Assembly: GCF_003151135.1 (NCBI RefSeq)
Contig: NZ_QEQK01000018.1
Location: 1 to 64,000, forward strand
Direction: 5' to 3'
From: Abyssibacter profundi
Lineage (GTDB): Bacteria; Pseudomonadota; Gammaproteobacteria; Nevskiales; OUC007
Length of the DNA stretch: 64,000 nucleotides
The translations under genes and the position numbers were made by a program. Of this stretch, positions 4,546 through 55,678 are shown piece by piece. The notes beneath the pieces are model-generated. The model had not been told where the DNA came from, made no database searches, and saw only the letters and a list, made by a program, of their open reading frames with translations. How positions within the stretch are numbered: the stretch's first letter is position 1; each line of letters starts with the position of its first letter.

Positions 4546-4587
4546 GCCGTTTGCTCCCGAACGCTGAGATCGATCCCCCAACCAGGA

Positions 4588-5132
4588 GCGCGGCCTTCAG
4601 GCCGAAACATCGTGGCGATCCGTTGTGTGCCTGCGATGTCCTGCAATCAGAGTCGTTCACGCCTGCCGTCAATACAACAGCGTCGGATCCTCATCGCGAG
4701 CAGTCGGGTTTCGCCCTGCCGGGCGAGCCGATTTTCTTTGTTCGCCCAAAGAAAACCGGCGAAAAGAAAAGGCGCCCGAACACGTGGCCCGCCACCTATT
4801 CGGCGGCGGGTGCCCTGTGCTTCTCGCAGTCGGTGGGCGTTGCAGACGGGCCATCGTGGCCCGACTGCAACGGCTTCGGCATCCTTGCCTCGCTCGGCGC
4901 TGCGCGCCGACTTATCCACCGCCTGCTGCGATGCTCGGCCACGTGACACGGGTTCAAACGCACATCACGCCGGATAACGAGCTTTTCCATGTCTGTGCTC
5001 AGCCGAGACGCGCAGCCGGCGACGGATTAAGCGGGCCGGCTGTTTGAGCCCGAAGGGCGAGTTTCCGGCCCGCCCGTCGACGGTGAGCATCGCAGGGGAG
5101 TCGCCCTTTTCCGCCCCTTATGGGCGCGCAAA
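4588..5132 (-). repeat. Modular intergenic repeat, inverted copy
   Basis: Read on the minus strand, this copy runs: hairpin H2, module A, a link (about 4937-4990), module B, hairpin H1, then a middle segment. Hairpin H1 at 4727-4760 has 14-base arms with one mismatch. The copy matches 6957-7510 in opposite orientation, but with the module order circularly permuted. The short ORFs inside are spurious, because they run through the hairpins. The copy fills most of the gene-free stretch 4546-5189. Confidence 0.85.
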
Positions 5133-5164
5133 AAAAAACGGGGCGGCCCCTTCCGGCCGCCCCG
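5130..5164 (-). terminator. Intrinsic terminator of the subtilisin-like protease gene
   Basis: On the minus strand a perfect 10-bp GC stem with a 6-base loop is followed by a run of nine T. It begins 25 bases after the protease stop codon. This is a textbook rho-independent terminator. Confidence 0.92.
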
Positions 5165-5189: not shown

Positions 5190-6389
5190 CTAGAAGCCGG
5201 CCGGGTCGAGGTACATCAGCAAATTCGGCGAACCGCTGCCCGGGTTGGAAATCAGCCCCGAGCTGGCGGCACCCACCAGCGCTGCAGCGGCATCGGCCGG
5301 CGTGGCCGATGGCGAGTCGGACAAGAACCGCGCAACGCCGCCCGCAACATGCGGGCTGGCCATGGACGTTCCGCTGAGTGTCGCGGAGCCCGTGTCACTG
5401 CTGGAGCTGGCCGAGACGATATTCGAGCCCGGCGCGAACAAATCCACGCAACTGCCAAAGTTCGAGAACGAGGACCGCGCATCCGAGCTGGTGGTCGAAC
5501 CCACCGTAATGGCTGCCGGCAGACGCGCTGGCGACTGGCTGCAGGCATCGGTGTTGTCGTTGCCCGCGGCGACTACGGCCGTCACACCGGCGTCGATCAT
5601 CCCCTGAACCGCGTCATCCAAGGTCTGCGACGCGCCGCCACCCAGTGACAGGTTCGCGACCGCAGGTGCGATGGCATTGGCCGCTACCCAATCAACACCG
5701 GCAATAATGGTGGAGGTCGCGGTCGTCCCCGCACAGCTGAACACACGAACGGTGTGGATAATCGACGACTTGGCAATCCCGAACTCCGTTCCGGCAGCCG
5801 TGCCGGCCACATGGGTGCCATGGCCGTTGCAGTCTTCCACGTTATCGGGTTCAGGCGCAGGGCATCCGATGCCCAGCAGCGTGCAGAGCAATCCGCCCCC
5901 ATTGGACGCGAAGTTACGACTCTCGCCCAGACGGCCGGCGAAATCCACGTGGCTGGAATTAATCCCGGTGTCGATGATGTACACATGGGCACCCGCACCG
6001 GCCGCATCGGGGTAGTCGTAATGGCCGTCCAGACCCGTGATCTGATCGACCCGGTCCAGACCGTAGGACGGCACGTTGAACTGGGTGGCATTGAGCTGCA
6101 TGACCGTGTCCTGCTCAACACGGGCCACCAGCGGATGACGCGCTAGCGCACGAGCCGCAATGGCCGGCAGCTTCACGGCGAATCCATTCAGCGCGCTGTC
6201 GTAAACGTGCAGTCGTTCGCCGCCACCGACCGTCGCGATCAGCCCATCGGCGAGTTGCGCGATGGGACCTGTTGCGGCCTCATCCAGCACCACAATGTAC
6301 TGGCCGCGAATCGGCTCGAATGCCTGGGCAGCGGGCGCCATCAGCACCGGCCATACCGCCAGTGCAATCCAGCGGACCAACTTATTCAT
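5190..6389 (-). CDS. Secreted S8 family serine protease (proteinase K/subtilisin-like)
   Basis: This 399-residue preproprotein has a signal peptide (about 1-23, ending AQA), an I9-type inhibitor propeptide (about 24-100) and a subtilase domain to the C-terminus. The catalytic triad is visible as D140 (IIDTGINSSH), H190 (NGHGTHVAG) and S342 (GTSMASPH), with the oxyanion asparagine in AAGND. Extra cysteines (for example C170, C176, C187, C219) suggest disulfides typical of exported proteinase K-like enzymes. It should be exported by Sec and self-process. No C-terminal secretion domain is present. The gene lies between two inverted copies of the modular repeat. Confidence 0.95.
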   Translation of the reverse strand: MNKLVRWIALAVWPVLMAPAAQAFEPIRGQYIVVLDEAATGPIAQLADGLIATVGGGERLHVYDSALNGFAVKLPAIAARALARHPLVARVEQDTVMQLNATQFNVPSYGLDRVDQITGLDGHYDYPDAAGAGAHVYIIDTGINSSHVDFAGRLGESRNFASNGGGLLCTLLGIGCPAPEPDNVEDCNGHGTHVAGTAAGTEFGIAKSSIIHTVRVFSCAGTTATSTIIAGVDWVAANAIAPAVANLSLGGGASQTLDDAVQGMIDAGVTAVVAAGNDNTDACSQSPARLPAAITVGSTTSSDARSSFSNFGSCVDLFAPGSNIVSASSSSDTGSATLSGTSMASPHVAGGVARFLSDSPSATPADAAAALVGAASSGLISNPGSGSPNLLMYLDPAGF

Positions 6390-6415
6390 GTCAACCTCCG
6401 GGGATAAGGTTCAAT

Positions 6416-6432
6416 GCCACCGTTTCGGTGGC
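6416..6432 (-). other. Small hairpin in the protease leader
   Basis: A perfect 7-bp stem with a 3-base loop lies 26 bases upstream of the protease start codon. It may shape the 5' leader or be incidental. Confidence 0.3.
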
Positions 6433-6553
6433 GTCCCGGAAGGTTGACCCAGCCACTCAAGCCGGCGCGATAGCGCCTGGCCGAGTTCGCTGTAGGAGAA
6501 TTCCGACCCTTGGCGACAGCGCCGCAGATCGCCGTCGGGCGTTAGCCCAACTC

Positions 6554-6600
6554 AAGGAAACACTGGTCTATTGGCGGCGCGAATAGAGCTGCGTTTCCTT
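6554..6600 (-). terminator. Interrupted dyad at the 3' end of the small gene
   Basis: Two nested arm pairs face each other: AAGGAAAC (6554-6561) with GTTTCCTT (6593-6600), and TCTATT (6567-6572) with AATAGA (6582-6587), around a 9-base loop. The structure overlaps the stop codon of the 53-residue gene and lies between that gene and the protease. It could end or attenuate transcription toward the protease. There is no T run, so the terminator role is tentative. Confidence 0.4.
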
Positions 6601-6760
6601 AATCGTCATTCGCAGACCCGTTGGCAATCACCATCTGCAGATTGGCCCAGCGATCGAGCTGCAGCGACGGCTGCTCGGTCTTTGCAGGTAGCGACGAGCG
6701 CGCGCTCTGCAGGCTAAGCAAACGCAGTAGCTGGGAGTGGCTGTGCGGGAGGTGTTCCAT
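6599..6760 (-). CDS. Orphan 53-residue protein with its own sigma-28-like promoter
   Basis: I do not recognise this small protein. The chosen ATG at 6760 is preceded by GGAG eight bases upstream; an alternative ATG at 6778 would give 59 residues but has no good ribosome binding site. The N-terminus is histidine-rich (HLPHSHS), then come a Leu/Ser-rich stretch (LLRLLSLQSARSS) and a polar tail. There is no signal peptide or membrane span. A close match to the CTCAAG-N14-GCCGATA promoter lies 36 bases upstream, and a dyad overlaps its stop codon. That promoter is shared with flgM, flgK and cheV in this window. This suggests co-expression with late flagellar genes; the function is unknown. Confidence 0.55.
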   Translation of the reverse strand: MEHLPHSHSQLLRLLSLQSARSSLPAKTEQPSLQLDRWANLQMVIANGSANDD

Positions 6761-6795
6761 GGTCCTGACTCCAGACATACGGGGCTTCGAGTGGT

Positions 6796-6823
6796 GTATC
6801 GGCCGTGATTGGTGAGGCTTGAG
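6796..6823 (-). promoter_or_regulatory. Sigma-28 (FliA)-like promoter of the 53-residue gene
   Basis: The minus strand reads CTCAAG, 14 bases, GCCGATAC. This matches the flagellar class III pattern shared by six other sites in the window. The expected transcript would have a leader of about 30 bases carrying the GGAG site. Confidence 0.6.
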
Positions 6824-6956
6824 GATTTTTTTCTGGGTTTTTGATGTGGTGTTGATCGGCGGGGATGTGGGGGACTTGATCGGTGGTCGTATCCGTCGCG
6901 CGACCTCTAAGTATCGGAACGTCCTGCCTATCGCGACCAAGCCTCAGGATGGACCC

Positions 6957-7510
6957 CAACCCGTGTCACGTGGCCGAGCATCGCAGCAGGCGGTGGATTA
7001 GTCGGCGCGCAGCGCCGAGCGAGGCAGGGATGCCGAAGCCGTTGCAGTCGGGCCAGGACGGCCCGTCTGCAACGCCCACCGGCTGCGAGAAGCGCAGGGC
7101 ACCCGCCGCCGACAGGCGGCGGGCCACGTGATCGGGCGCCGTTTCTTTTCGCCGGTTTTCTTTGGGCGCGCAAAGAAAATCGGCTCGCCCGACAGGGCGA
7201 AATCTGCTTGCGATGAGGACCCGATGTTGGCGTGTTCCGTGGCGGACTGAACCGCTCTGGTTGCAGGTCTCCGCGTGCAGACAGCGAATCGCAATGTTGT
7301 TTCGGCCTGACGGCCGAGCCCCTTTTGCGCGCCCAAAAGGGGCGGAAAAGGGCGGGTGCCACTGCTCAGGTCGGCGCGCCTACGGCGCGACGACTGCCCT
7401 GCGATGCTCGCCGGCGACGGGCGGGTCGGAAACTCGCCCGCTGCGCGGGCTCAAACAGCCGACCCGCTGACCCGTCGCCGGCTGCGCGTCTCGGCTGAGC
7501 ACAGGCACGG
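6957..7510 (+). repeat. Modular intergenic repeat, direct copy
   Basis: The plus-strand order is module B, hairpin H1 (7151-7184), middle segment, hairpin H2 (7319-7342, perfect 9-bp stem), then module A (7362-7507). It matches 4588-5132 in inverted orientation and 1-205 in direct orientation. The order differs from the 4588-5132 copy by circular permutation. The rest of the gene-free stretch (6824-6956 and 7511-7589) shows nothing recognisable. Confidence 0.85.
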
Positions 7511-7589
7511 AACCCCCCGCAACCCAAACCCGCTTGAGCGCACACCTGCGTCCTGCAGGCGCGCGTCTGCGTCGCTCACATTCGCCACC

Positions 7590-7617
7590 CTCAAGCCCCC
7601 TGCCCCTCTGCCGATAC
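7590..7617 (+). promoter_or_regulatory. Sigma-28 (FliA)-like promoter of the PilZ gene
   Basis: The plus strand reads CTCAAG, 14 bases, GCCGATAC, ending 31 bases before the PilZ gene's ATG. Element and spacing match those before flgM and cheV. Confidence 0.65.
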
Positions 7618-7648: not shown

Positions 7649-8383
7649 ATGCCTAGCCCGACTCTACAAGTGGTGTGTGGTGACAGCCTGCAACTGCAGT
7701 TTGTCGCTGACCAGGATGCCGCGCGGCCGCGTCTGACAGTTTCTGTGATTGGCCAGATTCCGGGGCGCAGTCTGTTGGTGACGCATCCCAGCGTCGCAGG
7801 ACGCCTGTTGCTGGTGCGTGATGGCGAGCCCGTGGCCTGCCGGATGTTCAGCGAAGGCCGGATGCTGGGATTCAAGACCGCGGTTCGCAAGGTCGCCACA
7901 CATCCGGATGCCTATTTGCATCTGGATTACCCCAAAGAGTTGGAGCAGCGCATTCTGCGCAGCGCACCTCGCGTCGCGGTGGATCTGGCTGGCCGCATCC
8001 GGATGAAAGACTCAGATCGCAGCCATGCGGCCCACATTGAAGATGTCAGCCTGTCCGGCTGTCGCCTGACCGCGCTACGCGCCGCCATCGATATCGGAGA
8101 GGCCGTCGTCATCACGGCCGATATCAAGATCGATGACAGCACCCAGGTGCTGGAGGCCGGCGGCATCGTGCGCAACCACCTTGAGAATGCCGACGCCGCC
8201 GCCCACCCCGAAGCCCAGACCTACGGCATCGAGTTCAATGCGCCGTCAGCGGAAGCATCGACGCTGCTGCGTGCCTTTCTTTATGACCAGCTGCATGCGT
8301 CAACGCGGATGCCGGTCGCGCCGACACCGGCGCGACCAGCTGCCAACGTGGTGGCTAGAACGCGTATCCAAGCGTCAGCATGA
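7649..8383 (+). CDS. PilZ domain c-di-GMP-binding protein (YcgR-like)
   Basis: This 244-residue protein has an N-terminal YcgR-N/PilZN-like beta domain (about 8-100) and a C-terminal PilZ domain. The c-di-GMP-binding motifs are intact: RxxxR at R104-R108 (RSAPR) and DxSxxG at D132-G137 (DVSLSG). By analogy with YcgR it probably acts at the flagellar motor as a brake or on related surface behaviour. A FliA-like promoter directly upstream supports a motility role, although the flagellar cluster is more than 30 kb away. Its last 29 bases overlap the convergent DUF1302 gene. A second YcgR-like gene sits at 52.6 kb. Confidence 0.88.
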   Translation: MPSPTLQVVCGDSLQLQFVADQDAARPRLTVSVIGQIPGRSLLVTHPSVAGRLLLVRDGEPVACRMFSEGRMLGFKTAVRKVATHPDAYLHLDYPKELEQRILRSAPRVAVDLAGRIRMKDSDRSHAAHIEDVSLSGCRLTALRAAIDIGEAVVITADIKIDDSTQVLEAGGIVRNHLENADAAAHPEAQTYGIEFNAPSAEASTLLRAFLYDQLHASTRMPVAPTPARPAANVVARTRIQASA

Positions 8384-53368: not shown

Positions 53369-53396
53369 CTCAAGAGGCGCGGTGGTCGGCCGATAT
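53369..53396 (+). promoter_or_regulatory. Sigma-28 (FliA)-like promoter of the GGDEF-EAL gene
   Basis: The plus strand reads CTCAAG, 14 bases, GCCGATAT. It ends 50 bases upstream of the preferred ATG. The -35 tail differs from the enteric consensus, but the core and spacing match the other sites. Confidence 0.55.
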
Positions 53397-53446
53397 CCAC
53401 TCCATCTAGTACGGATCGATTGCGATCCCGTTGGAGTTTCCACCAA

Positions 53447-55678
53447 ATGGCAACCGTGTTTTCTATGAGTGGCTCGACACTCAAGGCTTCGGCACCTGAC
53501 AAGGAACGTCTGCGGACCGTGACCAGTATCGAAAAAGCGCCGACCTATAGCCCGGCGGTACTCAGCAGCGAGCGCTTCCACCACACCCTGGCCTACGAGT
53601 CTGCCGAGACCTGGTTGGATGCGGCGATTGAGGCGTTCCGAACCGAGGTTGCCTGCGACCGGGTCAGCATCTGGCAGCGCATTGGCATGTCCGCGCAGTT
53701 TGAGATGCTGCATGGGCAGGCCAGCGACACGGCCAGCCCCCCGGTTTCACGCGCCATCGACACGCTCTGCGAGGGCGAGCCCACGCTGATCCGGCAGCAG
53801 CAAGTCGATGAAGACGGCACACGGTATGACACCGGCGACGCCTGGCTGATCGTGCCCGTGCTGGCCCGTGGTGAACTGCGTGGCGCGGTGTGTGTGGAAC
53901 GCAGTGCCGATGCGCGTTACCAACCGGGTGATGTCGAATCGGCCCGGGCCCTGGCGGGCGCGATCGGCGAGATCTGGAGCCGCAAGCGCATCAACGAACT
54001 CGAAGAAGGGCTGATGCTGAGCCTGGCGCGTTACCGCCTGCTGCACGAGCACTTTCCCGGCATGGTGTTTTTGCTCGACTCGGAAGGCCGCATCGTCTCG
54101 ATGAGCCTGTTCGCGGCGCGCCGGTTGGGCGTGAGCTTCGCCGAGGTTGCCGGTTATACGTTTGACCAGCTGTGCGACTGCGAATCGGCCGAGGATCTGC
54201 GCACGGCCCTGCGTTCGTCGCAGGGGTCGCAAACCAACGAAACGATTCAGTACGAGGCCTACCTGCGAGGCAAGAAAGGCACTCCCTTGCCGGTGGTGTT
54301 GTCGATCCGCACGCATGAGATGCCGCAAAGCGACCCGGTGACGTTAATCGCTGCCGAGGATTTGTCCCGGCTGCGCAAGGCCGAGCGACAGCTGCATCGA
54401 CGCGATCGCATCGACCCGGTCACCGGTCTGCTCAACCGCTGGGAGTTCGAGCGTCAAATCGCCGACACCTTGCTGGAACTGGGCGACGACGAAACCTGCT
54501 CGGTGATCTACGTGAACCTGGATCACTTCAAGGTCATTAACGAGTCCACGCGCCACGAGGCGGGTGATCGCTATCTCAAGCAAATCGGTAGCGTGCTGCG
54601 CGACACGTTGGATGAGACGGCGCTGATCAGCCGGATCGGCGCCGACCATTTCGCCTGCTACCTGCGTGACCGCTCTGATGCCGAGATCAAGGCCAGCATG
54701 TCCAAGATCGCCCGGACCATCCGGAGCTATCGGTTTTCGGTCGACCACCACATCTTCCGCTGTGGCGCGAGTGTGGGTGCGGTCACCGGCTTCGGGCCAG
54801 ACCTGACGGCCAATGATCTGCTGGCCCGCGCAGAGCGTGCCTGCGAGCGCACGCGTGAATCCGGCGACCCGTTCCTGGATTACTGGTCGCCGCACACACA
54901 AAACGCTGGCGAGGATGGCGACAGTGAGGTCGACTGGGTTGCACGCCTACACGACGCGCTGCGCTACGGCCGTTTTCGCCTGTATGCCCAACCCATCGAA
55001 TCGGTGGGCCCCGATCGGCTGCGACATTACGAGATCCTGGTGCGTATGTTGGCCGGTGACGGCACGGTGATTCCGCCAGGCAAGTTCCTGCCTGCCGCTG
55101 AACGCTTCGGCTTGTCGGACGAGCTGGATCGCTGGGTTTTTCATGAAACCCTGGCGTTTCTCAAGTCGCAGCAAGCCGATGCCAGCCAGTGCCAGTACTC
55201 GGTGAACCTGTCGGGCAAATCGCTGGCCAACCGGGAGTTTCTGGACGAGGTCGTCGCCACCCTGCAGCGCAATCCATTGCTGGCACGCAGACTGTGTTTC
55301 GAGATCACCGAATCCTCGGCCATCGGTCGCTTTGATGTCGCCTCGGCCTTCATCGGCGAGGTACATGCCTGCGGTGCCCGCGTGGCACTGGACGATTTCG
55401 GCAGCGGCATGTCCTCCTTCGGCTATCTCAAAAAGCTGACCATCGATTACCTCAAAATCGATGGCATGTTCATCCGCGATCTGCTGGGCGACGCCAGCAA
55501 CCAAGCCATCGTCAAAACCATTGTGTCCATGGCCCAGGCCTTCAACGTCGAGACGGTGGCGGAGTTTGTCGAAGACCGAAACGTTGCCGAGCACCTGGCC
55601 AGCATGGGCGTGGACTATGTGCAGGGTTTTGGCATCGGCAAGCCGCAGCCGCTGAGCGCAAACGAAGATCGGTTCTAA
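53447..55678 (+). CDS. GAF-PAS-GGDEF-EAL c-di-GMP protein, phosphodiesterase-like
   Basis: This 743-residue cytoplasmic protein has GAF (about 50-180), PAS (about 195-300), GGDEF (about 315-470) and EAL (about 490-735) regions. The GGDEF signature is degenerate (RIGADHFACYL), so cyclase activity is doubtful. The EAL catalytic set looks intact: EILVRM, NLSG, EITES, DDFGSG, DYLKID, AEFVE and VQGFGIG. It should lower c-di-GMP and favour swimming. GGAG lies ten bases before the ATG. An upstream FliA-like promoter links it to the flagellar genes. Confidence 0.92.
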   Translation: MATVFSMSGSTLKASAPDKERLRTVTSIEKAPTYSPAVLSSERFHHTLAYESAETWLDAAIEAFRTEVACDRVSIWQRIGMSAQFEMLHGQASDTASPPVSRAIDTLCEGEPTLIRQQQVDEDGTRYDTGDAWLIVPVLARGELRGAVCVERSADARYQPGDVESARALAGAIGEIWSRKRINELEEGLMLSLARYRLLHEHFPGMVFLLDSEGRIVSMSLFAARRLGVSFAEVAGYTFDQLCDCESAEDLRTALRSSQGSQTNETIQYEAYLRGKKGTPLPVVLSIRTHEMPQSDPVTLIAAEDLSRLRKAERQLHRRDRIDPVTGLLNRWEFERQIADTLLELGDDETCSVIYVNLDHFKVINESTRHEAGDRYLKQIGSVLRDTLDETALISRIGADHFACYLRDRSDAEIKASMSKIARTIRSYRFSVDHHIFRCGASVGAVTGFGPDLTANDLLARAERACERTRESGDPFLDYWSPHTQNAGEDGDSEVDWVARLHDALRYGRFRLYAQPIESVGPDRLRHYEILVRMLAGDGTVIPPGKFLPAAERFGLSDELDRWVFHETLAFLKSQQADASQCQYSVNLSGKSLANREFLDEVVATLQRNPLLARRLCFEITESSAIGRFDVASAFIGEVHACGARVALDDFGSGMSSFGYLKKLTIDYLKIDGMFIRDLLGDASNQAIVKTIVSMAQAFNVETVAEFVEDRNVAEHLASMGVDYVQGFGIGKPQPLSANEDRF

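Follow-up and report, generated by a model that had tools for sequence, protein, structure and literature searches.

A small sigma-28-associated gene paired with a YcgR-type flagellar brake gene in Abyssibacter

The flagellar brakes YcgR, MotI and FlgZ act on MotA, FliG/FliM or MotC and so reduce motor speed (PMC8203827). In E. coli ycgR is a target of the sigma factor FliA (sigma-28) (PMC4183435). A brake gene of this type is found in the window, the 64-kb stretch of Abyssibacter DNA analyzed here (7649-8383, plus strand). Its product matches PilZNR (PF12945, 'Flagellar protein YcgR', 1.8e-13) and PilZ (PF07238, 1.2e-10), and carries the motifs RSAPRVAV and DVSLSG; its domain content is that of a YcgR/MotI-type c-di-GMP brake. 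The c-di-GMP motifs RxxxR and D/NxSxxG are intact in all three Abyssibacter genomes compared, which are the window genome (G000) and two relatives (G001 and G002, both MAGs). The genus belongs to the Oceanococcaceae in the NCBI taxonomy. The brake gene has a putative sigma-28 promoter, TCAAG-N14-GCCGATAC, at 7591-7617 on the plus strand, 31 nt from the ATG, with an equivalent in both relatives. A very small gene is transcribed away from it on the other strand. Both genes are present and keep sigma-28 promoters in all three genomes, suggesting that they form a conserved, co-regulated divergent unit.

The distance between the two genes is unusual in the window. In the relatives the gap is roughly 100-230 bases, far shorter than in the window, where a long repeat (6958-7512) pushes the genes apart. 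The repeat has an inverted copy at 4584-5133. The two copies are roughly 550 bases each, flank the small gene together with a downstream protease gene, and have pieces in common that are up to 155 bases long and 96% identical. The intergenic regions of the relatives are too short to hold such a repeat beside the small gene.

The small gene is a complete unit, as the first-pass annotation of this DNA had proposed. On the minus strand, 53 codons (MEHLPHSHSQLL...ANDD) run from an ATG at 6760 through an open frame at 6602-6760 to a TAA at 6601-6599, so that the gene occupies 6599-6760. The ribosome site GGAG lies at 6772-6769, eight nucleotides before the ATG as had been noted, and the homologues in the relatives have GGAG or AGGAG, with a spacing of 7-9 bases over the three genomes. 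Two upstream starts (a 113-codon TTG frame and a 59-codon ATG frame) were rejected; conservation is limited to the ATG behind GGAG. The sigma-28 promoter, TCAAG-N14-GCCGATAC, is at 6796-6822 on the minus strand, and its -10 end is 35 nt from the ATG. A weight matrix derived from the general sigma-28 consensus scores it at 19.4, the joint-best match within the window; after shuffling, hits of 16 or more turn up at a rate of about 0.2 per 64 kb. A second, weaker site, TCAAG-N14-GCCGATCA, lies upstream (6853-6879, minus strand), and its equivalent was not found in the two relatives.

The promoter is kept at the same place in all three genomes. The promoters in the relatives are TCAA-N15-GCCGTTAA and TAAA-N15-GTCGATAA, at distances of 32 and 33 bases from the start codon, and the boxes are conserved while the spacers are unlike and the surrounding DNA has diverged. 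Pattern searches of whole genomes found 11 sites matching TMAA-N15-GCCGATA in the 3.74-Mb window genome, the promoters of the small gene and of the brake gene among them, versus two for the reversed control. A slightly relaxed pattern has 10 and 12 sites in the relatives, two per genome at the small-gene/brake locus. There the reversed control is about as frequent, so the support from the relatives comes from position and conservation and not from genome-wide counts. With a FliA promoter at leader distance in three of three genomes, it is highly likely from the sequences that the small gene belongs to the sigma-28 regulon.

Codon-level conservation shows that the small gene encodes a protein. 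Each relative has one full-length homologue (G002:C1:41878-42042 and G001:C256:23578-23742), embedded in intergenic DNA that otherwise cannot be aligned among the three genomes. The two protein identities are 46 and 42%, with E values of 3e-8 and 3e-7. The proteins are 53-56 residues long across the genus. In the ungapped 53-codon alignment of the three, 19 residues are invariant, and the in-frame BLOSUM score is 369 compared with 161 +/- 40 for a column-shuffled null (maximum 282 in 2000 shuffles) and at most 202 for the five alternative frames. Given these scores, and with the third codon position the least conserved in all three genome pairs, the frame is protein-coding; the start and the ribosome site are kept as well. 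The order of neighbors is also common to the three genomes: a DUF1302 protein, the divergent PilZ protein, the small ORF, and an S8 subtilase. The first-pass annotation had asked for a homologue with the same promoter in related genomes, and had taken a kept promoter with neither homologue nor codon conservation as counting against the gene. In both relatives the promoter, the homologue and the codon signature are conserved together. Judged from this comparison, it is close to certain that the small gene and its promoter are genuine.

The small protein has no recognizable family. Searches of Pfam, NCBIfam, PHROGs and PDB sequences gave no match, and neither did a fold search with the predicted structures, in agreement with the earlier reading; the lack of an export signal was likewise borne out. 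The start had been described as histidine-rich. Three of the first eight residues are indeed His, but only H8 is invariant. AlphaFold predicts helices at residues 6-21 and 31-50 for the window protein and at 9-16 and 35-50 for the protein of one relative, both with low confidence (pLDDT 65-71, pTM 0.31-0.34). The second helix (LxRWAxxQMxI) is the best-conserved stretch of the protein, which suggests that it may be a docking surface.

The distribution of the gene suggests that it is restricted to Abyssibacter, as far as could be searched. No credible homologue was found in the sister genus, among 82 further genomes of the order, or among 368 of the class. Weak profile matches in genomes of other genera (E 0.0001-0.05 per genome) were put down to chance, as they are short and lie inside longer frames of 125-756 codons. 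The sister genus was also found to have neither flagellin nor a PilZNR protein. Flagellin is present in 45 of 58 relatives outside the genus; flagella do not, as a rule, depend on the small gene. At four YcgR-type loci from other families, the weight matrix found no sigma-28 promoter in the flanks, and no similar pair of genes was seen (ORFs were listed for two of the loci). By sequence, the neighbors of these brake genes resemble succinate dehydrogenase subunits. As neither a homologue nor a sigma-28 promoter was found in these other families, a YcgR-type brake does not generally seem to need the small protein.

A palindrome overlaps the stop codon of the small gene, but the comparison does not support counting it with the gene, as the first-pass annotation had done. 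This dyad does exist (GGAAAC...CTATT...AATAG...GTTTCC, about 6554-6600), and its RNA fold has an energy of -23 kcal/mol (z -2.6). However, it has nine matches genome-wide at E <=0.01, eight of them elsewhere, and no T-tract terminator is called there; a role as a gene-specific terminator was rejected on these grounds. G001 has an element like it upstream of its homologue, and neither relative has one at the stop. The palindrome is thus a dispersed repeat that overlaps the stop codon by happenstance, although it could shorten the small-gene transcript.

Other sigma-28 sites in the window genome point to a recognizable flagellar regulon. The genes behind them encode flagellin (fliC), a MotA-like protein, FlgM, a response regulator, a GGDEF-EAL protein and a FIST protein, showing that the promoter patterns mark this regulon. 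The site at 53370-53396 in the window precedes a gene whose product has GAF, PAS, GGDEF and EAL domains (53420-55678) and which adds a second c-di-GMP gene to the regulon. Two further sites are on contig C13 of the window genome. One (G000:C13:56703-56729, score 22.2) is 30 bases 5' of a 134-codon ORF (MDKAIAAVATVRNAIIDTV...) that is preceded by GGAG and has no Pfam match, and its product is a candidate for a second unknown protein of the regulon. The other (G000:C13:3316-3342) scores 23.5, the top value among the strict sigma-28 sites seen in the genome, and is upstream of a possible 104-codon ORF where an obvious ribosome site is absent.

The leading idea is that the small protein works at the motor or together with the brake, a reading of the sequence evidence to which a probability of about 45% is given. 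On this reading the gene is a genuine flagellar class III gene that depends on sigma-28. Its product is a soluble cytoplasmic protein, 53-56 residues long, predicted with low confidence to have two short helices with a variable linker between them. It would be transcribed alongside fliC, motA, flgM and ycgR after hook completion. The conserved C-terminal helix may then dock on a partner, possibly the brake or the motor target of the brake, and the peptide would therefore tune motor output or c-di-GMP braking. The small gene is a good candidate for an accessory of swimming control, because it appears to be co-expressed with the flagellum and adjoins the brake gene back to back. The pairing of the genes is weak evidence of physical interaction. 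A narrower version, in which the small protein serves the brake as a dedicated partner, perhaps as a helical peptide occupying the brake or its motor-binding site, is rather doubtful.

The main alternative is that the small protein is a flagellar accessory unrelated to the brake, such as a helper in filament formation, export or chemotaxis, and that its pairing with ycgR reflects a shared regulatory region. The part of PMC4183435 available describes sigma-28 regulons as holding many unrelated late genes, and the Abyssibacter set includes fliC, flgM and the MotA-like, FIST and GGDEF-EAL genes. The two promoters of the pair are also separate, and far apart in the window. However, nothing specific points to filament, export or chemotaxis, and there is no match to a family or a chaperone. 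This alternative is possible but less likely than not.

A second alternative is that the small ORF is a leader cistron of the protease downstream, an S8 subtilase with an I9 propeptide (5190-6389, minus strand), and that the sigma-28 promoter serves the protease. The two genes are on the same strand and adjacent in all three genomes; roughly 110-210 bases separate them, and a clear terminator is lacking there. However, the small peptide is conserved at the amino acid level, and a secreted protease is atypical as a flagellar gene. The protease also has a separate block immediately upstream (6390-6500), conserved in all three genomes as AACTCGG..GG..GCTNTC and then TCAACCTTCcGG, that is probably its own regulatory site. 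A leader role is improbable.

The first-pass annotation had suggested a small regulator or an anti-sigma or motor-associated peptide, and the motor reading remains plausible. The flagellar association is supported by the FliA promoter and the divergent sigma-28 brake gene, and this neighbor strengthens the motor reading. A small helical protein made from a sigma-28 promoter does recall flgM, and it might regulate sigma-28 or another transcription factor. However, none of the three homologues matches any Pfam family up to E 1, including FlgM (PF04316), and a genuine flgM (PF04316, 1e-16) is present at about 51.9 kb in the window, behind a sigma-28 promoter of its own. A regulatory role of this kind is very unlikely. 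It is hardly to be credited that the ORF is spurious and that its promoter yields a non-coding RNA or nothing, for although E. coli FliA sites are often intragenic or novel, without an obvious target gene, in the accessible part of PMC4183435, the coding signature, start, ribosome site and length hold in three diverged genomes, and an Rfam search of the locus was empty.

Overall the locus holds a very small gene, not described before, whose expression appears to go with that of the flagellum; genes of this kind are easily missed by annotation. If the peptide acts on the brake, a small protein made together with it would join c-di-GMP in setting brake engagement, and a control point regarded as run by c-di-GMP would gain a protein input. 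The portions of PMC8203827 and PMC4183435 consulted describe no such layer for YcgR, MotI or FlgZ. Like FlgM, the Abyssibacter product is a small protein from a sigma-28 promoter, but it has no sequence match, whereas FlgM has a gene of its own and matches PF04316. Like E. coli flxA and ynjH, the small gene is very probably a late flagellar regulon gene outside the core set. It differs from them in that family searches showed no homology, and in being genus-restricted and paired with a brake gene. The neighbor resembles E. coli ycgR in its PilZNR and PilZ domains, in the motifs RxxxR and DxSxxG, and in having a sigma-28 promoter. No paired small gene is mentioned for YcgR, MotI or FlgZ in those same portions of the two sources, whereas in Abyssibacter the pair is kept in all three genomes.
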